A stretch of DNA of 64,000 bases, taken from Roseateles subflavus. Lineage in GTDB: Bacteria; Pseudomonadota; Gammaproteobacteria; Burkholderiales; Burkholderiaceae_C. A program made the position numbers and the translations under genes. Under the pieces are notes generated by a model that worked only from the letters and a program-made list of their open reading frames with translations, was not told where the DNA came from and made no database searches. The stretch is taken from contig NZ_JASVDS010000002.1 in assembly GCF_030285365.1 (NCBI RefSeq), positions 62,001 to 126,000 on the forward strand. Direction: 5' to 3'. Shown in pieces: positions 10,282 through 60,875 of the stretch. How positions within the stretch are numbered: position 1 is the stretch's first letter; the number at the start of each line of letters is the position of its first letter.

Positions 10282-10285
10282 GCCC

Positions 10286-13444: not shown

Positions 13445-13475
13445 GGCGGGCACAGACAAAGACAGGCAGGCCCGC

Positions 13476-13970: not shown

Positions 13971-14064
13971 TGGCAGAAGGCCTCGCGGCCCGGATGGAGG
14001 AGGTTCAGGGGATGGCGCGGCAGGCGCCGGGGGCGCGGCGCCCTCGGGCCTGCCGCCCGGTGGA

Positions 14065-14081
14065 GCCCGCCTCAGGCGGGC
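14065..14081. other. Short perfect hairpin in the gap after the CX3C peptide gene
   Basis: GCCCGCC-TCA-GGCGGGC forms a 7-bp stem with a 3-base loop, about 15 bases after the stop at 14096. It lacks a T-run on the minus strand, so it is at best a weak terminator or a processing stem. Confidence 0.35.
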
Positions 14082-14095
14082 CCCATGGCACGACG

Positions 14096-14269: not shown

Positions 14270-14413
14270 GATCCAGTCCTTGGTCAGGTGTGGGCGACCG
14301 CTTGGATGCGGTCAGGGCTGGATCCCTCCAGGGTGGCAGGCCTCCTGGGGCCTGACTCTGGAGCGCGATGCTAATCCGTCAGATGCGCGGTGGTGTTGGT
14401 GCTTGCCCGGGGG

Positions 14414-14803
14414 TCAGGCGTCGCCGCCGGGCGGGCCGTAGAGGCTCATGATGCCCTGCACCAGCTGGATGGGGCCGAAGGGCTTGGCGATGAAGAGGTC
14501 GGCGCCGGAGGCCTCGAACTCCGCCTGCATGTCCGAGAACGGGCGGGCGCTGACGATCACGACCTTGGGCGCCGTCCCGGGCTCAGCGGCCTGCTTGATC
14601 TGGCGGCAGGCCTCGAGGCCCGACATCCCGCCGGGCATCATCACGTCCATCAGGATGAGGTCGGGCTGTTCGGCCTTGACCTTCGCCAGCGCCTCGTCGG
14701 CGGTGCCTGCCTCGGTGAGCGAGAAGCTCTGCGCCAGCTCCAGCGTCATGCGCAGCAGATCGCGGATCTCGTTCTGGTCATCAACGATCAGGATTTTTTT
14801 CAT
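14414..14803 (-). CDS. Single-domain CheY-like response regulator
   Basis: 129 aa, consisting of a receiver domain only. It has the acidic pair IVDDQNE, phospho-Asp in LILMDVMMPGG, Ser switch in VIVSARPF and conserved Lys in FIAKPFG. There is no output domain, so it acts by protein contact or as a phosphate sink. Its cognate kinase is not adjacent; neighbours are a DUF6445 gene upstream on the same strand (92-bp gap) and the small CX3C gene downstream. The start is the ATG at 14803. Confidence 0.9.
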   Translation of the reverse strand: MKKILIVDDQNEIRDLLRMTLELAQSFSLTEAGTADEALAKVKAEQPDLILMDVMMPGGMSGLEACRQIKQAAEPGTAPKVVIVSARPFSDMQAEFEASGADLFIAKPFGPIQLVQGIMSLYGPPGGDA

Positions 14804-14895
14804 GGCGATGGTGGCAGTCGGCAGGTGGACGCTAGCCGACGTCCGGGGGTGTGGCAAGCCCGGGGCGCGCCAGACCGGCACAGACCGTGAACAAG

Positions 14896-15603
14896 TCAGT
14901 GTTCTGCGAGCCAGAAGAAGACGGCCGTGAGTCGCTTGTCCGACAGCTGCTCGCCGAAATAGCCGGTCGCGCTGTGGACGAGGGCCGCCTTGTAGAGCAG
15001 CAGGCGGTTGAAGCGGTTGTCCACGCGCCGCTCCTCGTACCAGGCCTGCGGCGGCAGGCTGCGCACGTTCAGCGCATCCACCAGGCTCTTGTGCGGCGCG
15101 CCCACGAGGTTGCCGCCGATTGCGCCGTTGGGGTAGCGCAGCCGGTAGAAGCTGGTGCCGCTGTCCGCCGGAGGGTCGGGGTGCAGGTAGAGCACGGCGG
15201 CATAGGTGCAGAGGTCGCGCCGGTCGGTATGCGGGCGGGCGCCGCATTCCTTGGCCCCGACGAGCTGGGCGACATTGAAGTCCAGCGTCGCCCCATTGGG
15301 CGCGGTACCGACCCACAGGCGCCGGGCGCCCGTGAGTTCACGGACACGGCTTTCCAGCTGCGCGATCTCGTCCTCGTTCAGGGCGCCCCGGAAGCGCATG
15401 CCCGGCCAGCTCTCCTTGGCGTGGGGAAAGCCGTAATGCCAGTCCTGGTGCTGCAGGCAGCGCTCGCGGATCTCGTGGGCGTTGGGCAGCACGTTGTCGC
15501 AGACCCAGTAGTTGCGACCCAGCTCAAGGCCGTCATCGACCAGGCGGGGGGCGGTCGGCGGAATGGGCGGCAGGACCGTGCCGGGCGGGGGCATGGGAAT
15601 CAT
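14896..15603 (-). CDS. DUF6445-family protein, probable 2OG-Fe(II) oxygenase fold
   Basis: 235 aa from the ATG at 15603 (a TTG at 15618 would add five residues). The central motif RPHTDRRDLCTYAAVLYLH gives HxD as in prolyl-4-hydroxylase-like oxygenases. A distal His occurs in ALVHSATGYFG, and a basic residue follows in DKRLTAVFFW. A characteristic DNVLPNAHEIRE lies near the N-terminus. I recognise the protein as the uncharacterised DUF6445 type. The oxygenase reading rests on the HxD...H pattern and is inferred; the substrate is unknown. It sits upstream of the CheY-like gene on the same strand. Confidence 0.72.
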   Translation of the reverse strand: MIPMPPPGTVLPPIPPTAPRLVDDGLELGRNYWVCDNVLPNAHEIRERCLQHQDWHYGFPHAKESWPGMRFRGALNEDEIAQLESRVRELTGARRLWVGTAPNGATLDFNVAQLVGAKECGARPHTDRRDLCTYAAVLYLHPDPPADSGTSFYRLRYPNGAIGGNLVGAPHKSLVDALNVRSLPPQAWYEERRVDNRFNRLLLYKAALVHSATGYFGEQLSDKRLTAVFFWLAEH

Positions 15604-15845
15604 GGGCAGGGGCCGCAACGGTGGCCAGGCGACGTGAACGAGGAGGGCGCCAGCCTAGCACCCGCCTGTCGCCCGGACGCCTGGGGACTTCACCGCTTGC
15701 CGGCGGCCCGAGGGGCGGCATCGCGCCGGGCGCGGGCGCAACAAGCTGCATGAGACGGTGTGCAGTTGTTGCAGGCGCGCGCCAGGCGGCCCGAGCCCCT
15801 TCACAATGCGCCGCCGCCCCCTGTGGGCCTCCCTCCCGAGCCGTC

Positions 15846-16682
<837 letters not shown>

Positions 16683-16698
16683 TCCAGGCGGCGCTGCC

Positions 16699-17580
16699 TC
16701 AGCCGAGCGCCAGTCCCATCACGCCCAGGGCGATGAACGCGGCGCCGAGCAGGCGCAAGGCGCGGTCGCCCTCCCCGAGCAGCGAGCCGCCGGCCAGCGC
16801 GGCGAAGAGCATCGACAGCTCCCGCGCCGGCGCCACATGGCTCAGCGGTGCCAGCCGCATGGCATACAGCACCATCACATAGCTGGCCGGTCCCAGCACG
16901 GCGACCGCCAGGGCGACACGCCATTGCCGACGCCAGGCGGCGCGGAAACCGGCCGGGTCGCGCAGGGCCAGGGGCAGCATCACGGGGATCCGCAGCACAT
17001 TGCCGAGGTAATCCAGCACGATGGGCGAGATGAGGAGGATCTTCACCGAGTAGCCGTCCAGCACGGTGTAGCCCGCGATGCAGGCCCCCGTGATGGCGCC
17101 CCAGCGCAGGCCCAGCAGGACCCGCGCCTTGCGCGCCGGGTCGTGCGCCTGACGCAGCAGCGCCGGGCCGCCCGCGATGAGGAACACGCCGGCGACCACG
17201 GCCAGTGCGCCGATGGCGCCGGTCATGCTCAGGGGTTCGTCCAGCAGCAGCACGGCGCCGAGCGTGCTCAGCAGTGGGCCGCTGCCGCGCGCCACCGGGT
17301 AGACCACGGTGAGGTCCGAGACGCGGTAGCCGTAGAGCAGGCAGTTGAAATAGACGAGGTGCAGCACCGCGCTGGCCGCCAGCGCCGCCCATTCGACCGC
17401 CCCGAAGCGCGGCACCGTGTCCCAGCCCTGCCAGAGGGCCACGGGCGCCCACACGAGGCCGACGAGGATGGCGCTGATCAGCACCACCTCTTGGCCGCCG
17501 CCATGGCGCTTGACGATGAGGTTCCAGCTGGCGTGGCACAGCGCAGCGGCGAGGACGAGGAGCAGGGCAAGGGGGGTCAT
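16699..17580 (-). CDS. EamA/DMT-family transporter
   Basis: 293 aa with about ten hydrophobic helices and two EamA repeats: N-terminal ALCHASWNLIVKRHGGG and PVARGSGPLLSTLGAVLLLDEPLS; C-terminal PARELSMLFAALAGGSLLGEGD. The R-x-x-x-l...E pattern before the fourth and ninth helices fits drug/metabolite exporters. It is divergent (184-bp gap) from a D-threonine-aldolase-type enzyme at 17765. Export or uptake of an amino-acid-like substrate is a possible link, but nothing in the sequence fixes it. Confidence 0.88.
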   Translation of the reverse strand: MTPLALLLVLAAALCHASWNLIVKRHGGGQEVVLISAILVGLVWAPVALWQGWDTVPRFGAVEWAALAASAVLHLVYFNCLLYGYRVSDLTVVYPVARGSGPLLSTLGAVLLLDEPLSMTGAIGALAVVAGVFLIAGGPALLRQAHDPARKARVLLGLRWGAITGACIAGYTVLDGYSVKILLISPIVLDYLGNVLRIPVMLPLALRDPAGFRAAWRRQWRVALAVAVLGPASYVMVLYAMRLAPLSHVAPARELSMLFAALAGGSLLGEGDRALRLLGAAFIALGVMGLALG

Positions 17581-17764
17581 GGCGGGCGGCGGTCCGCGCC
17601 GGGCGAGAGGCCCGCGCGGGGCCTGCAGTATGCCTGCGCCTGCCCGCCGAGGTTGCCGCTTGGGGGCAGGGCGGAGGGTCCGCTGCGCGAGGGGCGACGC
17701 CGCCGTGCCGCCTCGTCGCCGTGCACGCCTTTGCGGCGCTAGTGTCCTGCGCCACAATGGTTGC

Positions 17765-18922
17765 ATGACTGCCTCCGACGCCCTGCTGACCCTGCCGCCG
17801 GTCGCCCGCCCCGGCGACCCGCTCCCGGCCGTGGACACCCCCGCCCTGCTGTTGGATCTCGATGCCTTCGAGCGCAATGTCCGGCAGATGCAGGCCGCCG
17901 CGGACTCCGCCGGCGTGGCGCTGCGTCCGCATGCCAAGGCACACAAGTGCGTGACCATCGCGCAGGCCCAGATGGCGGCGGGGGCGGTGGGCATCTGCTG
18001 CCAGAAGGTCAGCGAGGCGATGCCCTTCGTGCAGGCGGGCATCCCGGACATCCTCATCAGCAACGAGGTCGTGGGGGCGGCCAAGGCCGGCCAGCTGGCC
18101 CGGCTCGCCGGGCGCACGCGGCTGAGCGTCTGCGTGGACCACGAGCTGCAGGTCGAGCAGCTGGCGCAGGCCTGCGAGGCGGCGGGCAGTCGCCTGGACG
18201 TGCTGGTGGAGATCAACATCGGGCAGGACCGCTGCGGTGTGGCCGATGCCGACGCCGTGCTGCGCCTGATCGACGCCCTGTGCCAGTACCCCGACACCCT
18301 GCGCTTCAAGGGGCTGCAGGCCTACCAGGGAGCGCTGCAGCATGTGCGTGGCGTCGAGGCGCGCCGTGAGGCCGTGCAGCGCGCCACCGACCGCGCGGCG
18401 GCGGTGCTGCAGTCCTTGCAGGCCCAGGGCGTCGTGTGTGAGACGGTGACCGGCGGCGGCACGGGCAGTGCCGCCTTCGACCTCGGCCTCGGGCTGTACA
18501 CCGAGCTGCAGCCGGGCTCCTACGTCTTCATGGACGCCGACTACGGCCGCAACGACGTCGCCGATGAAGGCCTGCGCTTCGAGCACGCGCTGCTGCTGGC
18601 GAGCACCGTCATGAGCGAGGGCGTCGGAGACCGTGCGGTGCTCGATGCCGGACTCAAGTCTCTCAGCGCGGAGTCCGGCATGCCCTGGGTCTGGGAAGCC
18701 GGCGGGCGCAGCCCGCGCTGGGACTATGTCTCCGCGAACGACGAGCACGGCCTCCTGCAATGCCGGGCACCCGGCTCGGCGAAGCCGGCGCTGGGAACGC
18801 AGGTCCTGCTGGTGCCCGGGCATTGCGACCCGACGCTGAACCTGCACGATCAGCTGGTCGTGCATCGCCAGGGGCGCGTGGAGGCGCTGTGGGCGATCGA
18901 AGCCCGGGGGCTCAGCCGCTGA
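17765..18922 (+). CDS. DSD1-family PLP enzyme (D-threonine/3-hydroxyaspartate aldolase type)
   Basis: 385 aa. The N-terminal alanine-racemase-like TIM barrel begins at DTPALLLDLDAFERNV, with the PLP lysine in LRPHAKAHKC. The C-terminal beta domain carries a metal site of the form HxC in VPGHCDPTLN, as in D-threonine aldolase and D-serine dehydratase-like proteins. These enzymes cleave beta-hydroxy-D-amino acids to glycine and an aldehyde, or glyoxylate for hydroxyaspartate. Which substrate applies cannot be read from sequence. The start is the ATG at 17765; the frame remains open upstream without a convincing start. Confidence 0.85.
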   Translation: MTASDALLTLPPVARPGDPLPAVDTPALLLDLDAFERNVRQMQAAADSAGVALRPHAKAHKCVTIAQAQMAAGAVGICCQKVSEAMPFVQAGIPDILISNEVVGAAKAGQLARLAGRTRLSVCVDHELQVEQLAQACEAAGSRLDVLVEINIGQDRCGVADADAVLRLIDALCQYPDTLRFKGLQAYQGALQHVRGVEARREAVQRATDRAAAVLQSLQAQGVVCETVTGGGTGSAAFDLGLGLYTELQPGSYVFMDADYGRNDVADEGLRFEHALLLASTVMSEGVGDRAVLDAGLKSLSAESGMPWVWEAGGRSPRWDYVSANDEHGLLQCRAPGSAKPALGTQVLLVPGHCDPTLNLHDQLVVHRQGRVEALWAIEARGLSR

Positions 18923-18949
18923 GCCAGCGCTGGCGAAGCGCCGTCGCCA

Positions 18950-20644
18950 TCAGGATCGACCGGCCTCCCAGGCGGCACGGCAGGCCGTGAGGCGCTGTGC
19001 ATCCAGCCCGCGCACGAGGCAGACGGCCGAGACGCCGCAGCGCGCGGCCGCCTCCACCTGAGCCGCCTCCAGCACGCCGCCGATCGCCACGACCGGCCGC
19101 CCCGCCATGCGCGCCCACCACGCCAGCTGGCTCAGACCCTGGGCCAGCCAGGGCATGTGCTTGGTCGTGGTGGCCCAGACGGGGCCGCAGGCGATGTAGC
19201 GCGGCGCCAGCCCGCGTGCCCGCACCAGCTCCCACAGGCTGTGGCTGGACAGGCCGAGCGCCATGCCGCTGTCCAGGATCCGCCGGCGCTGCATCGCGTC
19301 CAGGCAGGCCCAGTCCTCCTGGCCCAGATGCAGGCCGGTGGCCCCGACCTCCAGGGCCAGCTGCCAGTGGTCGTTGATCCAGAACTGCGTGCCCGGATGG
19401 TCGCGCATGCACTGCACGGCTCGCGTGACGCGTGCCCGCAGTGACGCGGGATCCAGGCCGGGGGTGGTCTTGCTGCGCAGCTGCAGATGCGGCAGGCCCC
19501 AGCCCGCCACGGCCGCGAGGCGTTCCTCGTCCTCGACGATGCCGTAGAGCCCGGGCGCGAAGGCGCCGGGCTCGGCGGCACCGGTCAGCACCGTTTGCCA
19601 GCGGGCGAGGGTGGCCGCGTCGGGGCGGGTCTCGTCGCCGAATCCCATCACCGGCAGGGCCTCGGGGGCGTGGATGAAGGAGGCCGCCGGGCGCAGCGGA
19701 CCGGCACCCGCACCGGCCGCATGCCCCTGGCGCAGGCCGTGCCAGCTGCACATCTTGGCCAGCACCAGCGCGTCGGCCGGCGGGAAGCCCCGGGCCAGTG
19801 CGGCGGCCGCGGCGCTGGCGAAGGTGCAGCCGCTGCCGTGATGGTGCAGGGGCGTCTGCTGCTGGCGCGGCAGGGCCATCCAGCCGCGCAGCCCCGGGCC
19901 GGCGTGCGGGGGCAAGTCCAGCCAGTCGAGGGCCAGGTCTTGCGCGCCAGGCACGGGCAGGGCGTCGTCACCCCCCGTGATGCAGACGCCCGCCTGGGGG
20001 GCGAGATGCTGGCGCAGGGCCGCCGCGAGTGCGGGGACATCCAGCGCCTCGCGAGACGCGGCGCCAGGCAGGTGCGCCAGCAGGGCCAGCGCCTCGCGCC
20101 GGTTGGGCGTGACCAGGGTGGCCTGGGGCAGCAGGCGCTCGCGGCAGGCCTGCAGCAGGGCGTCGCTGCAGAAGGCCGCACCGCCCGCGCTGGCACCGAG
20201 CACCGGGTCCACGACCAGGTCCACGCGCCGACCATCGGCGCGCAGGGCGGCGAGCGTCTCCAGCAGCGCCTCGATGGCCTCGACGCTGCCCAGCAGGCCG
20301 GTCTTGATGACGCGCGGGGTCAGGTCTTGCGCGAGCGCGGCGAGCTGATGGCGGATCTGGGCGGCCGGCACGGGATGCAAGGCCTGCACGCCGAGCGAGT
20401 TCTGCGCGGTGATGGCCGCGACCACCGGGCAGAGATGGACGCCGAAGGCCGCTGCGGCCCGGGCGTCGGCACTGAGGCCTGCCGCACCGCCGCTGTCGTG
20501 GCCGGCCACGCTCCAGATGACGGGGGGCGTGGCCTCCTGCGTCCAGTCGGGCAGCTGCGTCAGCGCAGGGTCCGGGGCCTCGAACCAGGGTGAGGGCAGG
20601 CTGGGGTGGGGCAGGGCGGTCGTCAGGGTCGCCATGGTCGTCAT
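18950..20644 (-). CDS. thiDE: ThiD-ThiE fusion: HMP(-P) kinase and thiamin phosphate synthase
   Basis: 564 aa. Residues about 40-330 are ribokinase-like HMP-P kinase (VIWSVAGHDSGGAAGLSAD; anion hole HGSGCTFASA). Residues about 370-560 are a TIM-barrel thiamin phosphate synthase (LQLRSKTT, INDHWQLALEVGATGLHLGQ, GPVWATTTKHM, VAIGGV). The protein thus makes HMP-PP and joins it to the thiazole phosphate. The ATG at 20644 overlaps the thiG stop as ATGA, implying translational coupling. It is last in the thiC-thiO-thiS-thiG-thiDE run under the TPP riboswitch. Confidence 0.93.
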   Translation of the reverse strand: MTTMATLTTALPHPSLPSPWFEAPDPALTQLPDWTQEATPPVIWSVAGHDSGGAAGLSADARAAAAFGVHLCPVVAAITAQNSLGVQALHPVPAAQIRHQLAALAQDLTPRVIKTGLLGSVEAIEALLETLAALRADGRRVDLVVDPVLGASAGGAAFCSDALLQACRERLLPQATLVTPNRREALALLAHLPGAASREALDVPALAAALRQHLAPQAGVCITGGDDALPVPGAQDLALDWLDLPPHAGPGLRGWMALPRQQQTPLHHHGSGCTFASAAAAALARGFPPADALVLAKMCSWHGLRQGHAAGAGAGPLRPAASFIHAPEALPVMGFGDETRPDAATLARWQTVLTGAAEPGAFAPGLYGIVEDEERLAAVAGWGLPHLQLRSKTTPGLDPASLRARVTRAVQCMRDHPGTQFWINDHWQLALEVGATGLHLGQEDWACLDAMQRRRILDSGMALGLSSHSLWELVRARGLAPRYIACGPVWATTTKHMPWLAQGLSQLAWWARMAGRPVVAIGGVLEAAQVEAAARCGVSAVCLVRGLDAQRLTACRAAWEAGRS

Positions 20645-49676: not shown

Positions 49677-51677
49677 ATGTTCAAGAAGATCCTGATCGCC
49701 AATCGCGGCGAAATCGCCTGCCGCGTCGCGGCGACTGCCCGTCGCCTGGGCGTGAAGACGGTGGCGGTCTACTCCGAGGCCGACGCCCGCGCGCGCCATG
49801 TGCAGGCCTGCGACGAGGGCGTGCTGATCGGCGGTCCTGCGCCCCGTGACTCCTACCTGCAATGGCAGCGCATCATCGAGGCGGCGAAGGCCACCGGCGC
49901 CGAGGCCGTCCATCCGGGCTATGGCTTCCTGTCGGAAAACGAAGACTTTGCCCAGGCCTGCGCGGCCGCCGGCCTCGTGTTCATCGGCCCGCCGGCCTCG
50001 GCCATCCTGGCCATGGGCCTCAAGGCCGAGTCCAAGCGCCTGATGGAGAAGGCCGGCGTGCCGCTGGTCCCCGGCTACCATGGCGCGGACCAGGACCCGG
50101 CCCTGCTGAAGAAGGAAGCCGACCGCATCGGCTATCCCGTGCTGATCAAGGCCAGCGCGGGCGGCGGCGGCAAGGGCATGCGTGCGGTGTATGCGGCCGA
50201 GGAGTTCGAGGCCGCGCTGGCTTCCTGCAAGCGCGAGGCCATCAACAGCTTCGGGGATGACGCCGTGCTGATCGAGCGTTATGTGCAGAAGCCGCGCCAC
50301 ATCGAGATCCAGGTCTTCGGCGACACGCAGGGCGACTGCGTCTACCTCTTCGAGCGTGACTGCTCGGTGCAGCGCCGTCACCAGAAGGTGCTGGAGGAGG
50401 CCCCGGCGCCCGGCATGACCGAGGCTCGCCGCCGCGAGATGGGCGAGGCGGCCGTGGCCGCGGCCAAGGCGGTGGGCTACGTGGGTGCCGGCACGGTCGA
50501 GTTCATCGCCGAGCAGGATGGGCGTTTCTACTTCATGGAGATGAACACCCGCCTGCAGGTGGAGCATCCCGTCACGGAAGCGATCACCGGCCAGGATCTG
50601 GTCGAGTGGCAGCTCCGCGTGGCCGCCGGCGAGCCGCTGCCGCTGAAGCAGCACGAGTTGCGCATGCACGGCCATGCCATCGAGGCCCGCATCTGCGCCG
50701 AGAACCCGGAAGCCGGCTTCCTGCCCGCCACCGGCCGCCTCGGGGTGGCCCGCTGGCCCGCCCACGTGAAGTTCCAGCGCGGTGACGTCCGCATCGATTC
50801 CGGGGTCGACGAGGGCGACGAGATCAGCCCCTTCTACGACTCCATGGTCGCCAAGCTGATTGTCTGGGGCGAGACGCGCGAACAGGCCCTGGCCCGCCTG
50901 GACGCCAGCCTGCGCGACACCCACATCGTCGGCCTGCAGACCAACGTCGCCTTCCTGCGCCGCTGTGCGGCCACGGCCTCCTTCGCGGGGGCGGACCTCG
51001 ACACTGCGCTGATCGAACGCGAGAAGGCCGCCCTGTTCGGCCAGCCCGGCCTGCCCCTGCGCGTGGCCGCTGCGGCGGTCGTCGCGCACACGCTGGCCGA
51101 GGAAGCCGCCACGGTGGGCAGCGACCCCTGGAGTCGCCGCGACGGCTGGCGCCTTTTCGGCGCCTCGGCACGCCGCTTCGATCTGGCCGAGGGCGAGGCG
51201 CATCACGAGGTGCTGCTGTCCCGCCACCACCAGGGCGGCATGGCACTGACGGTCGCGGGCGAGGCGATGGCCTTTGCCGTGCGTTCCACCGGCACCGAGC
51301 AGCACGAGCTGCTGCTGGGCGAGGGCCTGGGCCAGCAGCGCGTGACGGTCCGGACCTACAAGCAGGGCGAGCAGGTGGCGGTGTTCGCCGATGCCGGCTC
51401 CGCCTTGATGACCGAGGTCGACGTCATCGCCCACGCCGGTGAAGGGCAGGGCGAGGGGGGCCGCCTGACGGCGCCCATGCCGGGCAAGCTGGTGGCCTTC
51501 CTGGCCCAGGCCGGCGATACCGTCACCAAAGGCCAGCCGCTGGCCGTGATGGAGGCCATGAAGATGGAGCACACCATCACCGCACCGCGTGATGGCGTCG
51601 TGGCCGAGCTGCTGTTCGCCGTCGGCGATCAGGTGGGGGATGGCGCCGAGCTGCTGAAGCTCAAGGCCGCCGAATAA
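49677..51677 (+). CDS. liuD: Methylcrotonyl-CoA carboxylase alpha subunit (biotin carboxylase/carrier)
   Basis: 666 aa. It has a biotin carboxylase N-terminus (ILIANRGEIACRVAATARRLG), ATP-grasp KASAGGGGKGMR, MEMNTRLQVEHPVTE, a BT domain (about 460-580) and a C-terminal biotinyl domain with AMKMEHTI, the Lys that carries biotin. The length fits MccA/LiuD and not PccA-fused or acetyl-CoA forms. It works with LiuB (41895). The gene lies 225 bp after bioB and 19 bp before liuE; GGAG precedes the ATG. Confidence 0.93.
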   Translation: MFKKILIANRGEIACRVAATARRLGVKTVAVYSEADARARHVQACDEGVLIGGPAPRDSYLQWQRIIEAAKATGAEAVHPGYGFLSENEDFAQACAAAGLVFIGPPASAILAMGLKAESKRLMEKAGVPLVPGYHGADQDPALLKKEADRIGYPVLIKASAGGGGKGMRAVYAAEEFEAALASCKREAINSFGDDAVLIERYVQKPRHIEIQVFGDTQGDCVYLFERDCSVQRRHQKVLEEAPAPGMTEARRREMGEAAVAAAKAVGYVGAGTVEFIAEQDGRFYFMEMNTRLQVEHPVTEAITGQDLVEWQLRVAAGEPLPLKQHELRMHGHAIEARICAENPEAGFLPATGRLGVARWPAHVKFQRGDVRIDSGVDEGDEISPFYDSMVAKLIVWGETREQALARLDASLRDTHIVGLQTNVAFLRRCAATASFAGADLDTALIEREKAALFGQPGLPLRVAAAAVVAHTLAEEAATVGSDPWSRRDGWRLFGASARRFDLAEGEAHHEVLLSRHHQGGMALTVAGEAMAFAVRSTGTEQHELLLGEGLGQQRVTVRTYKQGEQVAVFADAGSALMTEVDVIAHAGEGQGEGGRLTAPMPGKLVAFLAQAGDTVTKGQPLAVMEAMKMEHTITAPRDGVVAELLFAVGDQVGDGAELLKLKAAE

Positions 51678-51696
51678 GTCTGCAAAGGAGTCCTTC

Positions 51697-52608
51697 ATGA
51701 GCACCCTGCCTCACCGCGTCACCCTGGTCGATGTGGGCCCACGCGACGGCCTGCAGAACGAGAAGCAGCCCGTCGCCACCGAGCACAAGGCCCGTCTTGT
51801 GGCGATGCTGCAGGACGCCGGCCTGAAGAACATCGAGGTCACCAGCTTCGTCAGCCCCAAGTGGGTGCCGCAGATGGGCGACAACACCGCGGTGATGGCT
51901 GCCATCGAACGCCGCCCCGGTGTTCGCTACAGCGTGCTGACGCCCAACATGAAAGGGCTGGAGTCGGCCCTGCCGACAAAGCCGGATGAAATCGTCGTCT
52001 TCGGCGCGGCCTCCGAAGCCTTCAGCCAGAAGAACATCAACTGCAGCGTGGCCGAGAGCATCGAGCGCTTCGCGCCGGTGGTCGAGGCGGCGCACGCTGC
52101 CGGCCTCAAGGTGCGCGGCGCGCTGTCCTGCGCTGTCGGTTGCCCCTACGAAGGGGACATCTCGCCTGACCAGGTCGAGCGCGTGGTCTTGCTGATGAAG
52201 GGCATCGGCGTGGATCACCTGGGCGTCGCCGACACCATCGGCGTGGGCACGCCCCGCCGCATCCAGGCCGCCATGGAGCGCGCGCTGAAGCACTACCCGC
52301 TGCATGAGGTCAGCGGCCACTTCCACGACACCTACGGCCAGGCGCTGTCCAACATCTACGCCTGCCTGGAGATGGGCATCCATACCTTCGACACCAGCGT
52401 CGCGGGTCTGGGCGGCTGCCCCTACGCCAAGGGCGCCACGGGCAATGTGGCCACCGAGGACGTGGTCTTCCTGCTGAATGGCCTGGGCATCGAGACCGGC
52501 ATCGACCTGGACCGTCTGGTCGATGCCGGTGCCTTCATCTCGGAGCAGCTCGGCCGTCCGCCGGTGTCCCGCGTGGCCCGGGCCTTGCTGGCCAAGCGGC
52601 AGGGCTGA
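51697..52608 (+). CDS. liuE: Hydroxymethylglutaryl-CoA lyase
   Basis: 303 aa TIM-barrel lyase: VTLVDVGPRDGLQNEKQPV at the N-terminus, EVTSFVSPKWVPQMGDN, metal-binding HFHDTYGQAL and the HMG-CoA lyase signature SVAGLGGCPYAKGATGN with its active-site Cys. It splits HMG-CoA into acetyl-CoA and acetoacetate, ending leucine breakdown. AAAGGAG precedes the ATG. It is the last gene of the operon; no clear terminator follows. Confidence 0.95.
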   Translation: MSTLPHRVTLVDVGPRDGLQNEKQPVATEHKARLVAMLQDAGLKNIEVTSFVSPKWVPQMGDNTAVMAAIERRPGVRYSVLTPNMKGLESALPTKPDEIVVFGAASEAFSQKNINCSVAESIERFAPVVEAAHAAGLKVRGALSCAVGCPYEGDISPDQVERVVLLMKGIGVDHLGVADTIGVGTPRRIQAAMERALKHYPLHEVSGHFHDTYGQALSNIYACLEMGIHTFDTSVAGLGGCPYAKGATGNVATEDVVFLLNGLGIETGIDLDRLVDAGAFISEQLGRPPVSRVARALLAKRQG

Positions 52609-53098
52609 CGCTCCCCCAGGCGGCTCAGTGCTCCGGCTCAGTGAGCCAGTTCAGCGAGGCGGTTCAGCGAGCCCATCCGGCACATCCGTTCCGCCATCCC
52701 ATCCCGCAAGCTGCGCTGTGCCGCCGGTTCCTCCGCAGGCCCGCTGCGCGCGTTGCGCGGACGGCGTGCCGGGGCCATGGCACGGCGCCAGCGTCGCCCA
52801 TGGCCCGAGGTGAGCAACCCTGTCGAAGCGATTGAAGCCGCGAGCCGTGCGAGCCGGGCGGACCATGCGTCTCGGGCGTGGCGTGCGAGGAGGGGGCATG
52901 GAGGGCCGGATGGGGCCCAGAGAGCCGGCCCGAGGCGGGCTCGAGTGCGGGCTCGAGTGACCGCTGGCGTGGCCGCTGGAGTGGCAACTGGAGTGGCAAC
53001 TGGAGTGCGGGGGCCTGTGCAGACCGACAAGTGCAGGCCGACAAGTGCAGGCCGGCAGACGTGGCGCGCGTCGTCGAGCGGCAGAACGAGCGCTGGCC
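52609..53098. repeat. Intergenic region with several unrelated short tandem repeats
   Basis: 490 bp without a supported gene. It holds 14-base units around 52621-52672 (CGGCTCAGTGAGCC / CGGTTCAGCGAGCC). GCGGGCTCGAGT occurs twice (52935-52958), GTGGCAACTGGA twice plus a diverged copy (52969-53004), and CCGACAAGTGCAGG twice (53024-53051). No terminator for liuE is visible. Confidence 0.7.
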
Positions 53099-54052
53099 TC
53101 AGGCCATGGCCGAGGCCAGCCCCAGCTCCTCCAGGACCCGCTGCCTGAAGCGCTCCGAGCGCTCGTCCCCGGCGCGCTCGCGCAGGTGCTGTGCGGCGAC
53201 TTCGATCCACAGCAGCAGGCCCTCCTCGTTGTCAATGTGGCGGGCGAGGGCGCGCAGATCGCCATCCTGGCCCGCGAGCATGCGGGCGACGAGATCCAGC
53301 GCATAGACCTTCGCGCGCAGCAGGCGACGCGCCTGAGCACCCGCGGCCTCCTGCGCGGCGATGAGTGCCAGCCGTGCCTGCTCGTGTCCCGACGCCGCCA
53401 GGGCGCTGGCCTCGGCCCCCGGACTCCCTACCCCAGGCGCAAGCCCCTGTGGCGACACGCCCGCGGCTGGCCTCGGCTCGCCGCTCCGCGCGGCCGGCGT
53501 CCCCGCAGATAGGGATGCTGATGCCGACACCGACACCGATGGCGACATCGATGCCGCCGGGGATGGCGCAGGGTCCCGCGCTGCCCGGCTGGCCGCGGAC
53601 GTCGCGGACGCCGGGGGCTCCGGTGAACGACCCTTGCGCGGGTCCGGCAAGGCCTGCGCCTTCGGGGCAAGCGGTCCCGCGTGAGACGCCGCCCTTGCGC
53701 CTGTGCCGGGCGCGGTGGTGAGTGCGGCGTTCGAGGTGCCGGCGGCGCTCGAGGCTTTCGCAGCACTCGCAGCATTCGAGGCACTCGCAGCGCTCGCAGC
53801 GCCGGTGCGCCCCTGGGTCACCGTGACTTCGTCGGCGCCGGTCGAGTCAGCCGGCACCGGCGCGATCAGGCCACGGCCATAGAGCGTCTCCACCACCGCC
53901 GGGTCGAGCCCGAGGTTGCGAGCCAGCTCGCGCAACTGGGGCAGATCGCGGCGGCCATCCACGGTGATCAACAGCATGCGCTCGCCGGCGGGCAGGTCGC
54001 GGCGGGGGCTGCGCAGCAGCTCTCGGGCAAGGTCCGTCTTTTGCAGTTTCAT
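53099..54052 (-). CDS. Hypothetical protein with conserved ends and Ala/Ser-rich linker
   Basis: 317 aa. The N-terminal 65 residues (RELLRSPRRDLPAGERMLLI, PQLRELARNLGLD, VVETLYGRGLI) resemble a small winged-helix-type domain seen in uncharacterised Burkholderiales proteins. Residues about 75-215 are low-complexity Ala/Ser/Pro with repeats such as ASASNAASAAKASSAA. The C-terminal 95 residues are helical (AQARRLLRAKVYALDLVARM ... RQRVLEELGLASAMA). There is no signal peptide, so it is probably cytoplasmic. No function is assigned. The frame is open upstream to 54730, but the family-like sequence starts at 54052. Confidence 0.65.
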   Translation of the reverse strand: MKLQKTDLARELLRSPRRDLPAGERMLLITVDGRRDLPQLRELARNLGLDPAVVETLYGRGLIAPVPADSTGADEVTVTQGRTGAASAASASNAASAAKASSAAGTSNAALTTAPGTGARAASHAGPLAPKAQALPDPRKGRSPEPPASATSAASRAARDPAPSPAASMSPSVSVSASASLSAGTPAARSGEPRPAAGVSPQGLAPGVGSPGAEASALAASGHEQARLALIAAQEAAGAQARRLLRAKVYALDLVARMLAGQDGDLRALARHIDNEEGLLLWIEVAAQHLRERAGDERSERFRQRVLEELGLASAMA

Positions 54053-54159
54053 GGGCGCATTCCAAGGGGGTGCCGCAGGCGATCCCGTGAACTGCGGATC
54101 GTTCGAGCCCCGCATCTTGCGGCGGGACTTTGATGCCGTCATGACAAGGGCCGTGCCGT

Positions 54160-54609
54160 TCAGGCGGGATCCCGCACGCGCTCGCAGAACCACCACAGAT
54201 GGCCGTCGAGATCGAGCGCCCCGTAGCAGCGGTCGGCCCAGTAGCCGGGGCCGTAGTCCTGCACGGCGGGCTCCATCACGATGCGGGCGCCCTCGGCGCG
54301 TGCCCGGGCGCAATGGGCCTCGGCGTCGTCCACATAGACCATCAGCGCCTGGGTGTTGGTGCCATCGCAGGCGAGCGGGCTGCGCAAGGGAATGCCGAAG
54401 CGCTGCGTGCGGTCGGCACGCCCCTCGCCGACCATGATCAGCCCTTCGCCGTAGCTGAGCTGGCTGTGCAGCACCGTGCCATCGGGGCCGTCCACCTTGA
54501 GCTGCACGGTGAAGCCGAAGGCCCGGACGAGCCAGGCGATGGCGGTGTTGGCATCGTTGTAGAAGAGGCTGCTGGCGATGCGGGGCCAGCCTTGGGGAGG
54601 CGCTTTCAT
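54160..54609 (-). CDS. VOC-superfamily (glyoxalase/PhnB-like) protein
   Basis: 149 aa. ASSLFYNDANTAIAWLVRAFGF is the first beta-alpha-beta module, and GYWADRCYGALDLDGHLWWF is the second with the usual DPDGH-like end. Members include dioxygenases, glyoxalases and resistance proteins, and the metal ligands are only partly conserved. No substrate can be assigned. It is a single gene between the low-complexity protein and the divergent peptidase-like gene. Confidence 0.85.
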   Translation of the reverse strand: MKAPPQGWPRIASSLFYNDANTAIAWLVRAFGFTVQLKVDGPDGTVLHSQLSYGEGLIMVGEGRADRTQRFGIPLRSPLACDGTNTQALMVYVDDAEAHCARARAEGARIVMEPAVQDYGPGYWADRCYGALDLDGHLWWFCERVRDPA

Positions 54610-54781
54610 CGGGGTTCCTTGAGGCTTCTTGCGGGAGTGCGCAGATTAGGCGCGATGCCGTCCACTGTCGTCCCGAGAATGAATGAACTAGGGAGAGGCC
54701 CTTGTCCTGGCGCGGGAACGCCCGCAACAATGCGCCGTTTGACGCATTTCAACGCACTTTGAAGCACGGGGAGTTCACTGC

Positions 54782-56293
54782 ATGGACAAGCTGATCCTGC
54801 GCCATGGCGCCGCCCTGACGGGCAAGTACGGCAAGGCCGGGTTGGGCCGCATCGACGCGGCGCTCAAGGCGCTCGTGACGGCGGACCGCCGCCGCGGCAT
54901 CGCCACGCAGGTGCTGAGCGTGGACGACGCGGCGGCCATGAAGCGGCTCGGCCTGGCCGCGGTGCCGCGCTCCGACCCGAAAGCGCTGAAGGCCGCGATC
55001 GACGGCCTCGCGACGGCGCTGGCGCCCCACTACTTCCTGCTGCTGGGGGCGCAGGATGTGCTGCCCTTCGTGCCGCTCGTCAATCCGGCCTTCACCGGCG
55101 ACGACGGGGACTGCGACAAGACGGTCCCCAGCGATCTGCCCTATGCCTGCGAGGCGCCCTACAGCACCGACGCGGCGCGCTTCCAGGGCCCCAGCCGGGT
55201 GGTGGGGCGGCTGCCCGACGTGCCGGGCGCGACGACGCCGGACCTGCTGCTGCAGCTCATCCATGCCGCCGCGCGTGCCAAGCCGCTGGATCGCGCCCTG
55301 TTCCAGCAAAGCTTCGGTCTCAGCGCCGCCGAGTGGCAGGCCTCCACGCGCCTGAGCCTGAGCAATCTCTTCGGTCAGGCCGATCAGCTGAAGCTGGCGC
55401 CGCCGGAAGGCCCGCGCTGGAGCAAGGCCGAGCTCGCGCCGCGCGTGCACTTCATCAACTGCCATGGCGGCGACACCAGCCCCGAGTACCTCGGGCAGCA
55501 GGGCGACGACTATCCGGTGGCGCACCGGGCCAGCCACTTGCGCGGCCGTGTCAGTGCGGGCACGGTGATTGCCGCGGAGTGCTGCTATGGCGCGCAGCTC
55601 TACGACCCCAACGACGCAGGAGGCCACCTGGGCATCGCCCTGAGCTATCTGGCCGATGGTGCGTGGGGCTTCTTCGGCAGCACCACCATTGCCTACGGCC
55701 CGAGCGAGGGCAATGGCTCGGCCGACCTCGTCTGCCAGTACTTCCTGCAGCGCGTGCTCGCGGGCGCCTCGCTGGGCCGTGCGGCGCTGGAGGCCCGGCA
55801 GAAGTTCGCGGGTGAGCGCACGCACCTGGATCCCGTGGACCTCAAGACCCTGGCGCAGTTCTACCTGCTGGGCGATCCGTCCGTGCAGCCCGTGGGCTTC
55901 ATCGGCCATGCCCTCACGAAGACGAAGGCGTTCAAGACCGCCTTCTCCAAGGTGCAGGACCGCGGCGTGCGTGGCCTGCGACGCGAACGCCTGGAGCGCG
56001 AGGGCCTGAACCTCGGCCGTTCGCTGCCGCTGCTGCGGCCCAGCGAGCAAGCCGCCGCCGCGCCGGTCGAGAAGGTGCTGCGCTCGATGGCGAAGGAGAG
56101 TGGCCTCGACCTCAAGGCCGCGCAGCGACGCAGCTACGTCCTGCAGGCCAGCCGGCTTGGGCCGAAGATCCCGCCGCGCAGCATTCACGTGCTGAAGGGC
56201 CGCAAGCTCAACGGCCAGCTGGTGACGCTGGTGGCCACCGAGCAGGATGGCGAGCTGCTGCACGTGCGCCGCCTGCATGCCCGCGGGGCCTGA
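54782..56293 (+). CDS. Putative clan-CD (caspase/gingipain C25-like) cysteine peptidase
   Basis: 503 aa without signal peptide. Three hydrophobic strands are visible: YFLLLGAQDVLPFVPLV (about 83-99), VHFINCHGGD and TVIAAECCYGA. The second and third end in His228-Gly and Cys267/268, a spacing of about 40 residues. That matches the clan-CD dyad (hydrophobic-H-G, hydrophobic-x-C) of caspases and gingipains. GAWGFFGSTTIAYGPSEGNG and FYLLGDPSVQPVG follow, as in C25-type domains. The C-terminal 120 residues are basic and helical. GGGGAG lies before the ATG. A small gene follows after 15 bp. The peptidase call is a motif-level inference; it could instead be an inactive C25-like scaffold. Confidence 0.6.
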   Translation: MDKLILRHGAALTGKYGKAGLGRIDAALKALVTADRRRGIATQVLSVDDAAAMKRLGLAAVPRSDPKALKAAIDGLATALAPHYFLLLGAQDVLPFVPLVNPAFTGDDGDCDKTVPSDLPYACEAPYSTDAARFQGPSRVVGRLPDVPGATTPDLLLQLIHAAARAKPLDRALFQQSFGLSAAEWQASTRLSLSNLFGQADQLKLAPPEGPRWSKAELAPRVHFINCHGGDTSPEYLGQQGDDYPVAHRASHLRGRVSAGTVIAAECCYGAQLYDPNDAGGHLGIALSYLADGAWGFFGSTTIAYGPSEGNGSADLVCQYFLQRVLAGASLGRAALEARQKFAGERTHLDPVDLKTLAQFYLLGDPSVQPVGFIGHALTKTKAFKTAFSKVQDRGVRGLRRERLEREGLNLGRSLPLLRPSEQAAAAPVEKVLRSMAKESGLDLKAAQRRSYVLQASRLGPKIPPRSIHVLKGRKLNGQLVTLVATEQDGELLHVRRLHARGA

Positions 56294-56308
56294 ACGGCGG
56301 GCGCCGGC

Positions 56309-56554
56309 ATGGGCCATCCTGTCAAGACCTGGACCGGCGTGATCGAGCGCCGCCACCTTGCCGCGGGCAGCAAGAGCGAACGGCAGGGCCTGGTGCTTCG
56401 CCTGGATGGGGGGCAGGTCTTGCCTGTGCGCCGTCTGGGCGGGAACGACTTCCGCGATGAGGTGCTGGAGGCCCTGCTCGGCCAGCGGCTCACCGTCCAG
56501 GCGCGCCAGCTGGACAGCGGCGTGCTGCAGATCGAGTCCTTTGCCTGCGGCTGA
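56309..56554 (+). CDS. Small hypothetical partner of the clan-CD-like protein
   Basis: 81 aa. It looks like a compact all-beta domain: KTWTGVIERRHLAAGSKSER, LVLRLDGGQVLPVRRLGGN, RLTVQARQLDSGVLQIESF. It has no signal peptide and no cysteine apart from one near the C-terminus (FACG). It starts 15 bp after the peptidase-like gene, so co-expression is likely. I do not recognise a family; substrate, inhibitor or adaptor roles are all open. Confidence 0.6.
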   Translation: MGHPVKTWTGVIERRHLAAGSKSERQGLVLRLDGGQVLPVRRLGGNDFRDEVLEALLGQRLTVQARQLDSGVLQIESFACG

Positions 56555-56699
56555 GTGCGCAGGGCCATGCTGCGCTGCGCCATAAGCGCGGCTAATAGGG
56601 GCCGAGATCCGTGAATGGCGCTTGCGGGGGGCCGGGCGGCGGTCGTACAACCCATGGCTTCAGAACCACGGCTCACGGGCCAAAACAAGGAGACAAGCC

Positions 56700-57815
56700 A
56701 TGCAGATCGGATGCCCGAAGGAAATCAAGAACCATGAGTACCGCGTCGGCCTGACGCCGGCCAGCGTGCGCGAGCTGACCAGCCGAGGTCACCGCGTGCT
56801 GGTGCAGACGCAGGCCGGCGCCGCCATCGGGCTGAGCGATGAGCAGTACGTCGCCGCCGGCGCCCAGATCGCGCCGGACGCCGCGACGGTCTTCGCCCAG
56901 AGCGACATGATCGTCAAGGTCAAGGAACCGCAGCCGCAGGAATGCGCGATGCTGCGCGAAGGCCAGATCCTCTACACCTACCTGCACCTGGCGCCGGATC
57001 CCGAGCAGACCGCGGCCCTGGTCAAGAGCGGCGCCATCTGCATCGCCTACGAGACCATCACCGGCCCGGGCGGCGGCCTGCCGCTGCTGGCCCCGATGAG
57101 CGAAGTGGCCGGCCGCATGTCCATCCAGGCGGGGGCGGCCCATCTCGAGAAGAGCAAGGGCGGCATGGGCGTGCTGCTGGGCGGCGTGCCCGGCGTGGCG
57201 CCCGCGCAGGTCACCATCATCGGCGCCGGCGTGGTCGGCACGCATGCGCTGCAGATGGCCGTGGGCCTGGGCGCCCGTGTCACGGTGCTCGACAAGAGTG
57301 TGGACCGCCTGCGCCAGCTGGACCTGGTTTTCGGCAATCGCATCACCACGCTGTACTCCAATGCCCAGAGCGTCGAGGAGTCCGTGCTGGCCGCCGATCT
57401 CGTCATCGGTGGCGTGCTGATCCCCGGTGCCGCGGCGCCGAAGCTGGTGACGCGCGACATGGTCTCGCGCATGAAGAAGGGCGCGGTCGTGGTGGACGTC
57501 GCCATCGACCAGGGCGGCTGCTTCGAGACCTCGCACGCCACGACGCACGCCGAACCCACCTTCCTGGTGGACGGCGTGGTGCACTACTGCGTCGCCAACA
57601 TGCCGGGGGCCGTGGCCCGCACCTCCACCTTTGCCCTGAACAACGCCACCATCGGCCATGCCGTGGCGCTGGCGGACAAGGGCTGGCGCCAGGCCCTCAA
57701 GGACAACGCCCACCTCAAGGCCGGCCTGAACGTGGCGCAGGGCCGGGTGACGTATGAGGCCGTGGCCCGCGACCTGGGCTACGACTACCTGGCCGCGGAT
57801 GCCCTGCTGCCCTGA
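56700..57815 (+). CDS. ald: Alanine dehydrogenase
   Basis: 371 aa, the standard length. [20 protein letters not shown] at the N-terminus, substrate-site KVKEPQ and YLHLAPD, NAD-binding [18 protein letters not shown], and [14 protein letters not shown]. It interconverts alanine and pyruvate with NAD+ and ammonia. AAGGAGA precedes the ATG at 56700. It is monocistronic with a terminator. Confidence 0.96.
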
Positions 57816-57836
57816 GCAGCTTGTCTTTCCTTGCGC

Positions 57837-57860
57837 AAAGCCGGGTTCGCCCGGCTTTTC
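57837..57860 (+). terminator. Terminator after ald
   Basis: AAAGCCGGG-TTCG-CCCGGCTTTT: a 9-bp stem on a stable TTCG tetraloop. Confidence 0.9.
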
Positions 57861-58202
57861 TCATGGCGCCGGCGGCCGCCCTCGGCAGGACCCCGATGAA
57901 CAGGCGCCGGAGCCGCCGGACGCTGCTTCGGCGCGTTCCGGCATCAAGTGTGCAAGCCTGCACGAATCCCCGTCCCCCTGAATGGAGGGCAAGGGCGTCA
58001 GACTGCTCCGAACCCCCCCCGAGGCCGCCTATCATCGCGCCGCTGTTCAGACGTTTCTGATTGTTTCGGAGATGTCTTGACGGTGTCGCCCCTGCAGAAC
58101 ACGAGTTTCCGGCTCATGGACGCGGCGGGGGCGGCCTGGTCAATCAGGGGAGTCGCCGCTCGATCGAACGGGATCGGCGGGCGTGCAGAAGAGTCAACGG
58201 GT
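57861..58202 (+). other. Gap before the CelD-like acetyltransferase gene
   Basis: About 340 bp. The downstream frame is open from 57948, but the sequence before 58203 lacks the family's conserved start. A relatively AT-rich stretch (58047-58080, TTCAGACGTTTCTGATTG) is the likely promoter or leader region. I see no other gene. Confidence 0.45.
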
Positions 58203-59519
58203 ATGGCAAGGGTGCTGAAACAGGTCGACATGTCATGGGCGAAAGCCGGCACCTCGGTGTGCCGAGCGGACGCGCCTGCGCAGGCCGTGCCAGCGCCGTC
58301 CGGGCGGCGCCAGCCGGCGTCGGGCGAGGTCCTGGGGCTGCAGCGTCATCGCGTGCAGTGGGAGACCGACCGCGAGCTGGATCCGGCCTTCATCGAGGAG
58401 TGGCAGGCGCTGCTGGCCCACAGCCACGGCCCCGAGCCCATCTACCAGTCCCCCGCCTTCATCCAGTACATCCGGGCGACCAGCCAGGATCCCATGGAGG
58501 TGGAGATCCTCACCGTCCGGGATGCCGCCGATGGCCGTCTGCTGGCGCTGACGCCGATCCGCTACCGCGATCTCGCCATGGGGCTGCAGGTGCGGCACTG
58601 GCGCCTGAAGCTGGGCGCGCTGCACGTGGGCACGGTCATGGGCAGCGCGGTGCTGGGGGACGAGTCCCCGGCCGTGCTCGAGAGCATGGTGCGCTTTCTC
58701 TTCGCAGAGCGCCCTCGCGTGGGGGCGCTGTCCCTGCCGGCGATGTCGCAGGAGGCCAGCACCTGGGCGGGCCTGCAGGCGGTGACCCGCCAGGCGCGAG
58801 GTCTGGGGGCCTGCGTGCTGCATGGCTGGCGCGAGTGCCACAAGATTCCGCTGCCGGGCGACTTCAACGCCTACCTGGCGCAGTTCGGCAGCAAGCACCG
58901 CTACAACCTCAAGCGTCAGGTCCGGCTGCTGCGCGAGCATGCGCCGCTGGCACTGACGCGCATCGATTCGCCCGAGGGCATGGACGTGCTGATGGCGGCC
59001 ATCGAGCGCATGGCCACGGCCGAAGTCCGCTCCGTCCTGATCTCTCCCGAGAAGTTCCTGGCGATGGCGCGCCTGGGCCTGCTGCGCTGCTATGTGCTGC
59101 AGTCCGACGGTGTGCCGGTCGCCGCGCTGGTGGCCACGCAGTTCGGCTCGACGCTGCACCTGCACAACGTGCTGACCGATCCGGCCATGCTGCGCTTCTC
59201 GGTGGGCACGTCCATCCTGTACATGGCCATCGAGGACCTGAGCAGCGAAGGGCGCTTCACGGCCATCGACCTGGGCTACAGCTCGCCTGCGCACAGCCAC
59301 CAGTCGTCCAACCGCATCGAGAACCGGGGCCACCTGCTGCTGTACCGGTCGAGCCTGCGGACCTGGGCGCTGTGCACGGCCGAGCGCGTCTTCGGCGAAT
59401 GGCTGGAGCGCGCCAAGGAGTGCCAGCAGGCCGTGAAGGCCTGGCGCGCCCGCCGTGCCGCCGCCGCCCGGGCGGCCAAGGACGCCAAGGACGGCGGCAA
59501 GACGACGCCGGACGTCTGA
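58203..59519 (+). CDS. CelD/BioF2-like GNAT acetyltransferase
   Basis: 438 aa from the ATG at 58203 (in-frame starts exist further up). It begins its conserved part near LDPAFIEEWQALLAHSHGPEPIYQSP. The C-terminal GNAT fold (about 245-400) shows FNAYLAQFGSKHRYNLKRQVRLL, VPVAALVATQFGSTLHLHNV, SVGTSILYMAIEDL and IDLGYSSPAHSHQSSN. Family members modify extracellular polysaccharides or other secreted products; no such genes flank it here. The C-terminal tail is Lys/Ala-rich. Confidence 0.82.
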   Translation: MARVLKQVDMSWAKAGTSVCRADAPAQAVPAPSGRRQPASGEVLGLQRHRVQWETDRELDPAFIEEWQALLAHSHGPEPIYQSPAFIQYIRATSQDPMEVEILTVRDAADGRLLALTPIRYRDLAMGLQVRHWRLKLGALHVGTVMGSAVLGDESPAVLESMVRFLFAERPRVGALSLPAMSQEASTWAGLQAVTRQARGLGACVLHGWRECHKIPLPGDFNAYLAQFGSKHRYNLKRQVRLLREHAPLALTRIDSPEGMDVLMAAIERMATAEVRSVLISPEKFLAMARLGLLRCYVLQSDGVPVAALVATQFGSTLHLHNVLTDPAMLRFSVGTSILYMAIEDLSSEGRFTAIDLGYSSPAHSHQSSNRIENRGHLLLYRSSLRTWALCTAERVFGEWLERAKECQQAVKAWRARRAAAARAAKDAKDGGKTTPDV

Positions 59520-59573
59520 GCGGCGCCTCCGGCGTGACGGGCCCCGTGCCGTTGCCGGGCGGAGCTGCGGCCG

Positions 59574-60875
59574 TCAGAGCGGGGTCGCGGGCGTCGCGGG
59601 CGAGTAGCCGTCGCTGAGCGTCTTCAGGAAGCTGACGATGTCGTTCACGTCCTGCGGGCTGAGCGCCGGCAACTGGCCGGGCCGGCGATCGAAGGGCGCA
59701 CCCCGGTGCACATTGCCCTGATAGGCCGCCGGCAGGTCGTTGTAGCGCTGCACCTGGCCGTTGACGACGGGATACCAGCGCGCCGGGTCCACGTCGCGTG
59801 TCGCGTAGAAGCCCACCACCTCCTCCAGGGTCTGGAAGCGGGCGTTGTGGAAGTAGGGCGCGCTCAGCGCCACATTGCGCAGGCTGGGCACCCGGAAGCG
59901 GCCGCATTGGCTCGGCTGCGAGGCGAGGTCCGTGCGCTGCGGGCCGCACAGACCCAGGTCGAAGAAGGCGGGGTTCTGTGTGGCCGCGCTCTGGTTGCGC
60001 GGCACCCCCAGCGCGAAATAGGCGTGGTTGGTGAAGAGCGCGCGCGCGCCGGCCGGCGCGTTGGCCGGCGGCGTGGCGCTGTGGCAGGCGGCGCAGTTGC
60101 CCCGGCGCGGGTCGGTGAAGGCCGCGAAGCCGCGGGCCTCCTGGGCGGTGAAGGTGGCGCGGCCGTCCTGGACGGCGTCGAACTTGCTGCTGAAGGGCGC
60201 GAAGTCCGGGTCCTGCTGCTGGTAGCGGGCGAGGGCCTGCAGACTGGCGTCCAGCAGTTGGGCATCGGTCGCGGCGGCGGTGAGGCCGCTGGCTTGCAGC
60301 AGCGCCGGGAAGGCGCTCACCGTGCGCAGGCGTCGCACATAGCTCGGCACATCGGCATTGGCCATCTCGTTCGCGGCGAAGAGCGGTCCGCGGGCCTGTG
60401 CGATGCGGTCATTGGCGCGCCCGTCCCAGAACAGGCCGCCGTGCGCCCGGCCCTGCGCGTCGATGCTGAAGGCCGGCGTGCCGTTGAGGTAGCGCAGGCT
60501 GGGGCTGCTGCGCAGGCCCTGCTGGTTCATGAGGACACCGCCGACAGGCAGGAAGGTGCCGGCCTTGTCGGCATGGGCCTGGGCCGCGGCATGGCAGCCG
60601 GCGCAGGAGAGCTGGCCGCTGGCCGACAGACGGGGCTCGTTGAAGAGCTGCTGGCCCACGCTGGCGAGCGTTGGCGGCGGCGGGCGCACCGCGGTGGCCT
60701 GCGTCAGCGCGGCGGTGCTGGCGGCGCTGTCGTTGGTCGCGCTGGCGGTCACGTCCGGCGGGGTGCCGGCGCTGCCCGAGCCGCCCCCGCAGGCGGCCAG
60801 CAAGGCGGTGCTCAGCGTCAGCCAGGTCAGCAGGGCGGGACGACGGCGGGCAGAGGGGATGGGGAAGGGGCGCAT
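59574..60875 (-). CDS. Di-haem cytochrome c peroxidase/MauG-type lipoprotein
   Basis: 433 aa with lipoprotein signal (STALLAACGGG). Two haem c sites CAGCH (about 93) and CAACH (about 244) lie in the order expected for bacterial cytochrome c peroxidases and MauG proteins. FRVPSLRNVALSAPYFHNARFQTLEEVV and LSPQDVNDIVSFLKTLSDGY are family signatures. It would act in the periplasm, anchored by lipid. It lies 29 bp downstream of the Spy-like gene on the same strand, so the two may be co-transcribed. Confidence 0.92.
   Translation of the reverse strand: MRPFPIPSARRRPALLTWLTLSTALLAACGGGSGSAGTPPDVTASATNDSAASTAALTQATAVRPPPPTLASVGQQLFNEPRLSASGQLSCAGCHAAAQAHADKAGTFLPVGGVLMNQQGLRSSPSLRYLNGTPAFSIDAQGRAHGGLFWDGRANDRIAQARGPLFAANEMANADVPSYVRRLRTVSAFPALLQASGLTAAATDAQLLDASLQALARYQQQDPDFAPFSSKFDAVQDGRATFTAQEARGFAAFTDPRRGNCAACHSATPPANAPAGARALFTNHAYFALGVPRNQSAATQNPAFFDLGLCGPQRTDLASQPSQCGRFRVPSLRNVALSAPYFHNARFQTLEEVVGFYATRDVDPARWYPVVNGQVQRYNDLPAAYQGNVHRGAPFDRRPGQLPALSPQDVNDIVSFLKTLSDGYSPATPATPL

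Follow-up and report, generated by a model that had tools for sequence, protein, structure and literature searches.

Closest described systems

Gingipains are secreted virulence proteases of gum disease, and the known C25-family enzymes RgpB and Kgp carry an N-terminal prodomain as well as a signal peptide. Here we describe a two-gene locus in a 64,000-nucleotide stretch of Roseateles subflavus DNA (contig NZ_JASVDS010000002.1, positions 62,001 to 126,000; hereafter the window), in which a peptidase of this family is followed by a gene for a small OB-fold protein that accompanies it in several phyla. Judged from the predicted model and by eye, the window peptidase lacks both the signal peptide and the inhibitory prodomain that mark gingipains proper. 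It differs from RgpB and Kgp also in its C-terminal region and in having an OB-fold partner encoded by a separate gene.

Several other systems combine a protease with a small or sensory partner. The potempins of Tannerella forsythia are OB-fold protease inhibitors, exported as lipoproteins and aimed at metallo- and serine proteases. Their likeness to the window's partner is one of fold only, and the partner differs from them in having no signal peptide or lipobox cysteine visible by eye near its start and in lying next to a cysteine peptidase. In CHAT and TPR-CHAT proteases (Craspase, Csx29), SAVED-CHAT and the caspase-nuclease system Canu, a sensor (a CRISPR effector, SAVED or TPR) or a nuclease is attached, whereas the C25 pair carries the OB-fold protein instead. 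The staphostatin gene lies downstream of the staphopain gene. In that system a cysteine protease has its own specific inhibitor, a small beta-barrel protein (PMC7863939); staphopain, however, is a secreted papain-fold protease, and the staphostatin barrel differs from the OB-fold partner.

The peptidase family itself is not new, and 'C25 family cysteine peptidase' is already the annotation of some plasmid relatives. The conserved OB-fold partner, and a subtilase-C25-OB triplet present in some relatives, did not appear in the titles or abstract openings among the matches listed by a literature search with most subscription papers and bioRxiv outside its range; the terms 'DUF5818' and 'C25 family cysteine peptidase' returned no paper within the same range. 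By text look-up, the main texts of PMC7159879, PMC10907252 and PMC12799240 do not use the word 'gingipain', that of PMC12799240 (Canu) does not contain 'C25 peptidase', and section 32 of PMC7159879 does not mention C25. If gingipains do have an unexported branch whose partner is conserved in several phyla, clan-CD peptidases would gain a new regulatory pair, comparable to caspases and their inhibitors or to separase and securin. Being only two genes in size, the pair would be a convenient system for studying how bacteria keep caspase-like enzymes safe, and possibly a new class of effector for immunity.

A gingipain-fold peptidase with an invariant His/Cys dyad

A preliminary description, made from the sequence alone, had proposed a two-gene unit in which the small gene starts 15 bp after the larger one, and both open reading frames (ORFs) are indeed present on the same strand with that gap:

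54782..56293, + strand: C25-family (gingipain-fold) cysteine peptidase, 503 amino acids, ATG start
55463..55465, + strand: codon of His228, the dyad's catalytic histidine, present in 60/60 aligned rows
55580..55585, + strand: codons of Cys267 and Cys268, of which Cys268 (60/60 rows; Cys267, 56/60) is the catalytic candidate
56309..56554, + strand: OB-fold partner protein, 81 amino acids, five strands and one short helix, ATG start
56366..56383, + strand: codons of residues 20-25 of the partner (GSKSER), a conserved loop that links strands 1 and 2, with Ser23 invariant and Lys22 in at least 90% of rows

The window peptidase matches Pfam PF01364 (Peptidase family C25) at 25.1 bits, against a curated cut-off of 23, and all 38 relatives in our alignment A1 match it at E <= 0.01; of three divergent relatives scanned with this model, only L100 gives a match, L101 and L103 giving none (relatives' loci are given L numbers throughout). 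The dyad lies in an HG pair at residues 228-229 and a CC pair at 267-268. Since the four rows without Cys267 read EACYG, and Cys268 is kept throughout, the latter is the catalytic candidate. The alignment behind these counts includes one second copy, and leaves out three other second copies, four truncated or interrupted loci and the seven plasmid loci. The clan-CD His/Cys pattern proposed earlier is conserved, with neither His228 nor Cys268 lost in the aligned rows, and structure prediction agrees with it: instead of a non-peptidase fold, the model is a confident gingipain fold, with an N-terminal and a caspase-like subdomain.

The catalytic region spans about residues 1-372, and its fold begins at the very first residue of the model. 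No signal peptide is visible by eye at the N-terminus, which reads MDKLILRHGAALTGKYG (MDKLILRHG...), as the preliminary description had also noted, and the enzyme is on this ground probably cytosolic. What had been described as a basic helical C-terminal tail is instead predicted as an alpha/beta region (about 394-503) of two helices, a short strand-helix-strand unit and four strands' worth of sheet. The model is mostly confident here, and less sure at about 371-400 and in the last few residues. At the extreme C-terminus, C25 relatives end in Arg (often Ser-Arg) at 43 of the 55 loci counted, perhaps as a tail that docks or as a trace of processing.

A sequence search of solved structures gave two chance-level matches for the peptidase, and its profile gave none. 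No PADLOC-DB family matched either window protein at E <= 1.

The small partner is an OB-fold protein

The predicted structure of the 81-residue protein is an OB fold in which five strands form the barrel and a short helix lies between strands 3 and 4; the earlier view of an all-beta protein holds except for that helix. Its conserved stretches sit between strands 1 and 2, where the GSKSER loop lies (counts from alignment A2, 32 rows), and after strand 3. Fold matches are mainly to nucleic-acid-binding proteins (SSB, PriB, RPA and subunits of pol-delta), and an OB-fold protease inhibitor is also among them. DUF5818 (PF19135) is matched by 5 of 32 family members at E <= 1 (best 1.9e-4) and not by the window protein. 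A search of solved structures with the partner's profile returned seven matches, all at chance level.

A specific co-variation between Lys22 of the partner and Glu266 of the peptidase was considered and dropped because the Lys is missing and the Glu retained in L100, L101 and L102; L007 and L057 alter both sites, with GTGSEH in the partner and AMCC in the peptidase. No natural fusion of the two proteins was noticed in the loci examined.

The pairing is conserved across phyla

The small gene lies beside the peptidase in 69/74 loci (65/70 without second copies), in line with the dedicated partner that had been proposed. In the first set of loci it is downstream on the same strand in 55 of 59, or 51 of 55 once second copies are removed (L002, L003, L005 and L006 are 100% identical to L008, L009, L011 and L023, respectively); its start overlaps the peptidase stop in 28 of those 55 loci, with the ATG chosen by us. 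It is also present in all seven plasmid loci fetched, from ten plasmid records with a peptidase match, and in 7/8 further genome loci. Three of these, L100, L101 and L102 from a myxococcal sample, have the genes in the other order, the small one first; a change of order has thus not broken the pair. In a sample of 250 genomes from the family, seven carry the peptidase, and the same seven carry the small gene, always adjacent; an eighth small-gene match, in G193, is marginal (E 3.2e-4) and covers part of the profile. The source genome has one match to each protein.

The distances of peptidase and partner are correlated (r 0.82 over 47 pairs, with 0 of 2000 shuffles as high), falling to only r 0.37 for pairs with a peptidase distance over 0.5. 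Compared with two same-genus genomes, the peptidase has ratios of non-synonymous to synonymous substitution rates of 0.15 and 0.15, and the small gene has ratios of 0.29 and 0.23; both genes are therefore under purifying selection. The fold, the dyad and the co-occurrence of the small gene support the earlier proposal of a clan-CD peptidase that acts inside the cell and has a small dedicated partner.

Distribution of the peptidase is sporadic. Besides the family sample, it occurs in 1/398 genomes of the phylum, the window's own, and in 3/297, 2/250, 5/235 and 2/247 genomes of four other groups, with the seed genome counted in each. Named relatives include Roseateles/Mitsuaria/Pelomonas, Chitinophaga, Pedobacter, Desulfobacterales, Acidobacteriota, Latescibacterota, a Labilithrix and Bradyrhizobium. 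A phage collection gave no match, and none of the 12 stretches of viral contigs that matched a pattern encoded a relative.

Gene neighbourhoods

Seven ORFs around the window pair (49677-60875) were scanned with Pfam. One has no family; the others encode a methylcrotonyl-CoA carboxylase alpha subunit, an HMGL-like lyase, a glyoxalase-like protein, an alanine dehydrogenase, a GNAT acetyltransferase and a MauG-type peroxidase, with no mobile or defence gene among the seven. An alanine-dehydrogenase-like gene, recognised by eye, also follows the pair in L004, and neighbours are conserved within the group at Roseateles-type and Chitinophaga loci.

Apart from the OB gene, the comparisons made revealed just one gene that recurs next to the peptidase in different lineages, a subtilase (S8) gene; gene calls are approximate where annotation is lacking (the plasmid stretches L066 and L067 are wholly unannotated). 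The subtilase gene lies directly upstream in six loci: L028, L056 and L099, where Pfam confirms S8, and L047, L058 and L098 (in two pieces), which are homologous to those by tblastn. The association needs four changes on the tree, at least two of them supported by firm branches, and none of the six subtilases has an export signal obvious by eye.

Some relatives lie in contexts that resemble published conflict systems (PMC7159879, PMC10907252 and PMC12799240). In L047 (1415-13930), a metallo-beta-lactamase-fold gene with weak PADLOC matches to LmuA and Avs1a is followed by the subtilase, C25 and OB genes and then an EVE/KAP-NTPase gene, a defence-like neighbourhood. PADLOC models are also matched by the subtilases of L028 and L068, and L052, which has no OB gene, has a TIR-TPR gene downstream. 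Among plasmids, L064 and L065 have a caspase-family gene near the pair. L068 carries both a subtilase gene and a trypsin-like one there, and L069 a trypsin-NucA fusion within about 12 kb, with a second trypsin-like gene between. The last case recalls 'System 3' of Kaur et al. 2020 (trypsin plus NucA nuclease, sometimes with S8; PMC7159879), and subtilases occur with both kinds; the window pair differs, with no NucA or trypsin gene among its seven scanned neighbours. In L061, L062/L068, L063 and L067 (Rhizobium, Bradyrhizobium and Novosphingobium plasmids), the pair adjoins a set of ferritin-like, LodA-like and radical SAM genes, joined in L061 and L068 by a halogenase-like FAD enzyme. The LodA-like matches are weak and below Pfam cut-offs, and L063 has a different kind of ferritin-like gene; the set is possibly a cluster for peptide modification or for a quinone-cofactor oxidase.

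A putative protease switch and its alternatives

Family, fold, dyad and conserved pairing are established by computation, and the recurrence of the pair in distant phyla suggests a controlled protein-cutting switch inside the cell. In the model we favour, a cytosolic gingipain-fold cysteine endopeptidase would be made with the OB-fold protein translated directly behind it. The latter, most likely an inhibitor or regulatory subunit, would bind the peptidase and keep its activity down in the manner of potempins and staphostatins, its conserved G-S/T-K-S-E-H/R loop perhaps docking at or near the active site. Release might come from a signal or through cleavage by a second protease, for example the subtilase encoded upstream in six relatives, and the freed peptidase would cut selected proteins after Arg or Lys, the P1 specificity of the C25 family (PMC4357240). 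The outcome might serve defence or regulated cell damage. We rate the chances of this model as about even. It is argued for by the pairing, the coupled distances, the fold precedent and three loci in which the peptidase frame is interrupted and the partner frame open, where an assembly error is possible. A more elaborate form, a widespread immune or cell-death module with the protease silenced by an OB 'antitoxin', fired by an upstream subtilase or trypsin cascade and, at one myxococcal-group locus, placed beside a retroelement-diversified sensor, is a tentative idea that we think will probably prove wrong.

Several observations weigh against the favoured model. Five loci (L043, L048, L052, L055 and L103) show the peptidase motif without any partner that can be recognised; in L055 an 83-residue ORF (9607-9858) that the OB profile does not match takes the small gene's place after the peptidase. 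Whole-genome searches of L043, L048, L052 and L055 found no partner elsewhere at E <= 0.01, and the absences need four changes on the tree, at least three by firm branches. Since such partnerless peptidases retain the dyad motif, the partner is not necessarily a safeguard. It could instead be a sensor or specificity subunit whose loops bind a ligand (nucleic acid, sugar or protein) and activate the peptidase or bring it substrates. This alternative stays alive because OB folds are usually nucleic-acid-binding, as are most fold matches here, and the conserved stretches between strands 1 and 2 and after strand 3 would suit it; the protease inhibitor among the fold matches, and the fact that no nucleic-acid gene recurred across lineages in the neighbour comparisons, speak against it, and we regard it as possible though rather unlikely. 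The metabolic genes scanned around the window pair offer no hint of a conflict role. The conflict or regulated-proteolysis role proposed in the preliminary description draws its support only from the context of some relatives. A cascade in the window strain is likewise unsupported, because its only match to the upstream-type subtilase is partial, at 34% identity, and on another contig.

The same metabolic neighbours, together with the group-conserved neighbours at Roseateles-type and Chitinophaga loci, as for a resident chromosomal gene, and the oxidase-like set beside the pair on some rhizobial-type plasmids, would fit a dedicated maturation protease, which would process the leader or pro-form of one protein with the OB-fold protein as chaperone or adaptor and with no conflict module involved. 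A housekeeping maturase would, however, not usually be as sporadic as the peptidase is in the four other groups, and in the comparisons made no neighbour except the subtilase recurs with the pair across lineages; we find this reading improbable. That the two genes are functionally unrelated and adjacent by chance would suit the 15-bp gap of the window taken alone and the five relatives without the small gene, and is close to refuted by the number of paired loci, in several phyla and in both gene orders.

Additional observations

Nothing was found in a promoter and terminator scan of 54550-56760. The sole Rfam match in the whole window at the gathering threshold is a TPP riboswitch (RF00059, 24823-24952, - strand, 59.9 bits), far from the gene pair. 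About 2.4 kb upstream of the L022 pair, a gene (2600-5629) combines an eCIS_core domain with a nuclease domain.

The C25 proteins of L100, L101 and L102 make up a divergent subfamily whose N-termini carry zinc ribbons, matched by Pfam DZR in L100 and L101 and recognised by eye in L102; the small gene here lies upstream. It is preceded by a large zinc-ribbon gene, which in L101 has an SPFH/Band 7 domain. In L100 the pair shares 20 kb with a diversity-generating retroelement (6000-20000), with the following features:

7177-9261, - strand: second FGE-domain gene, adjoining the C25 gene
16967-17090: template repeat
17084-18112, - strand: reverse transcriptase
18102-18464, - strand: bAvd-like gene
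19151-19933, - strand: FGE-domain target gene
19161-19284: variable repeat

All 19 mismatches between the template and variable repeats fall on template adenines.
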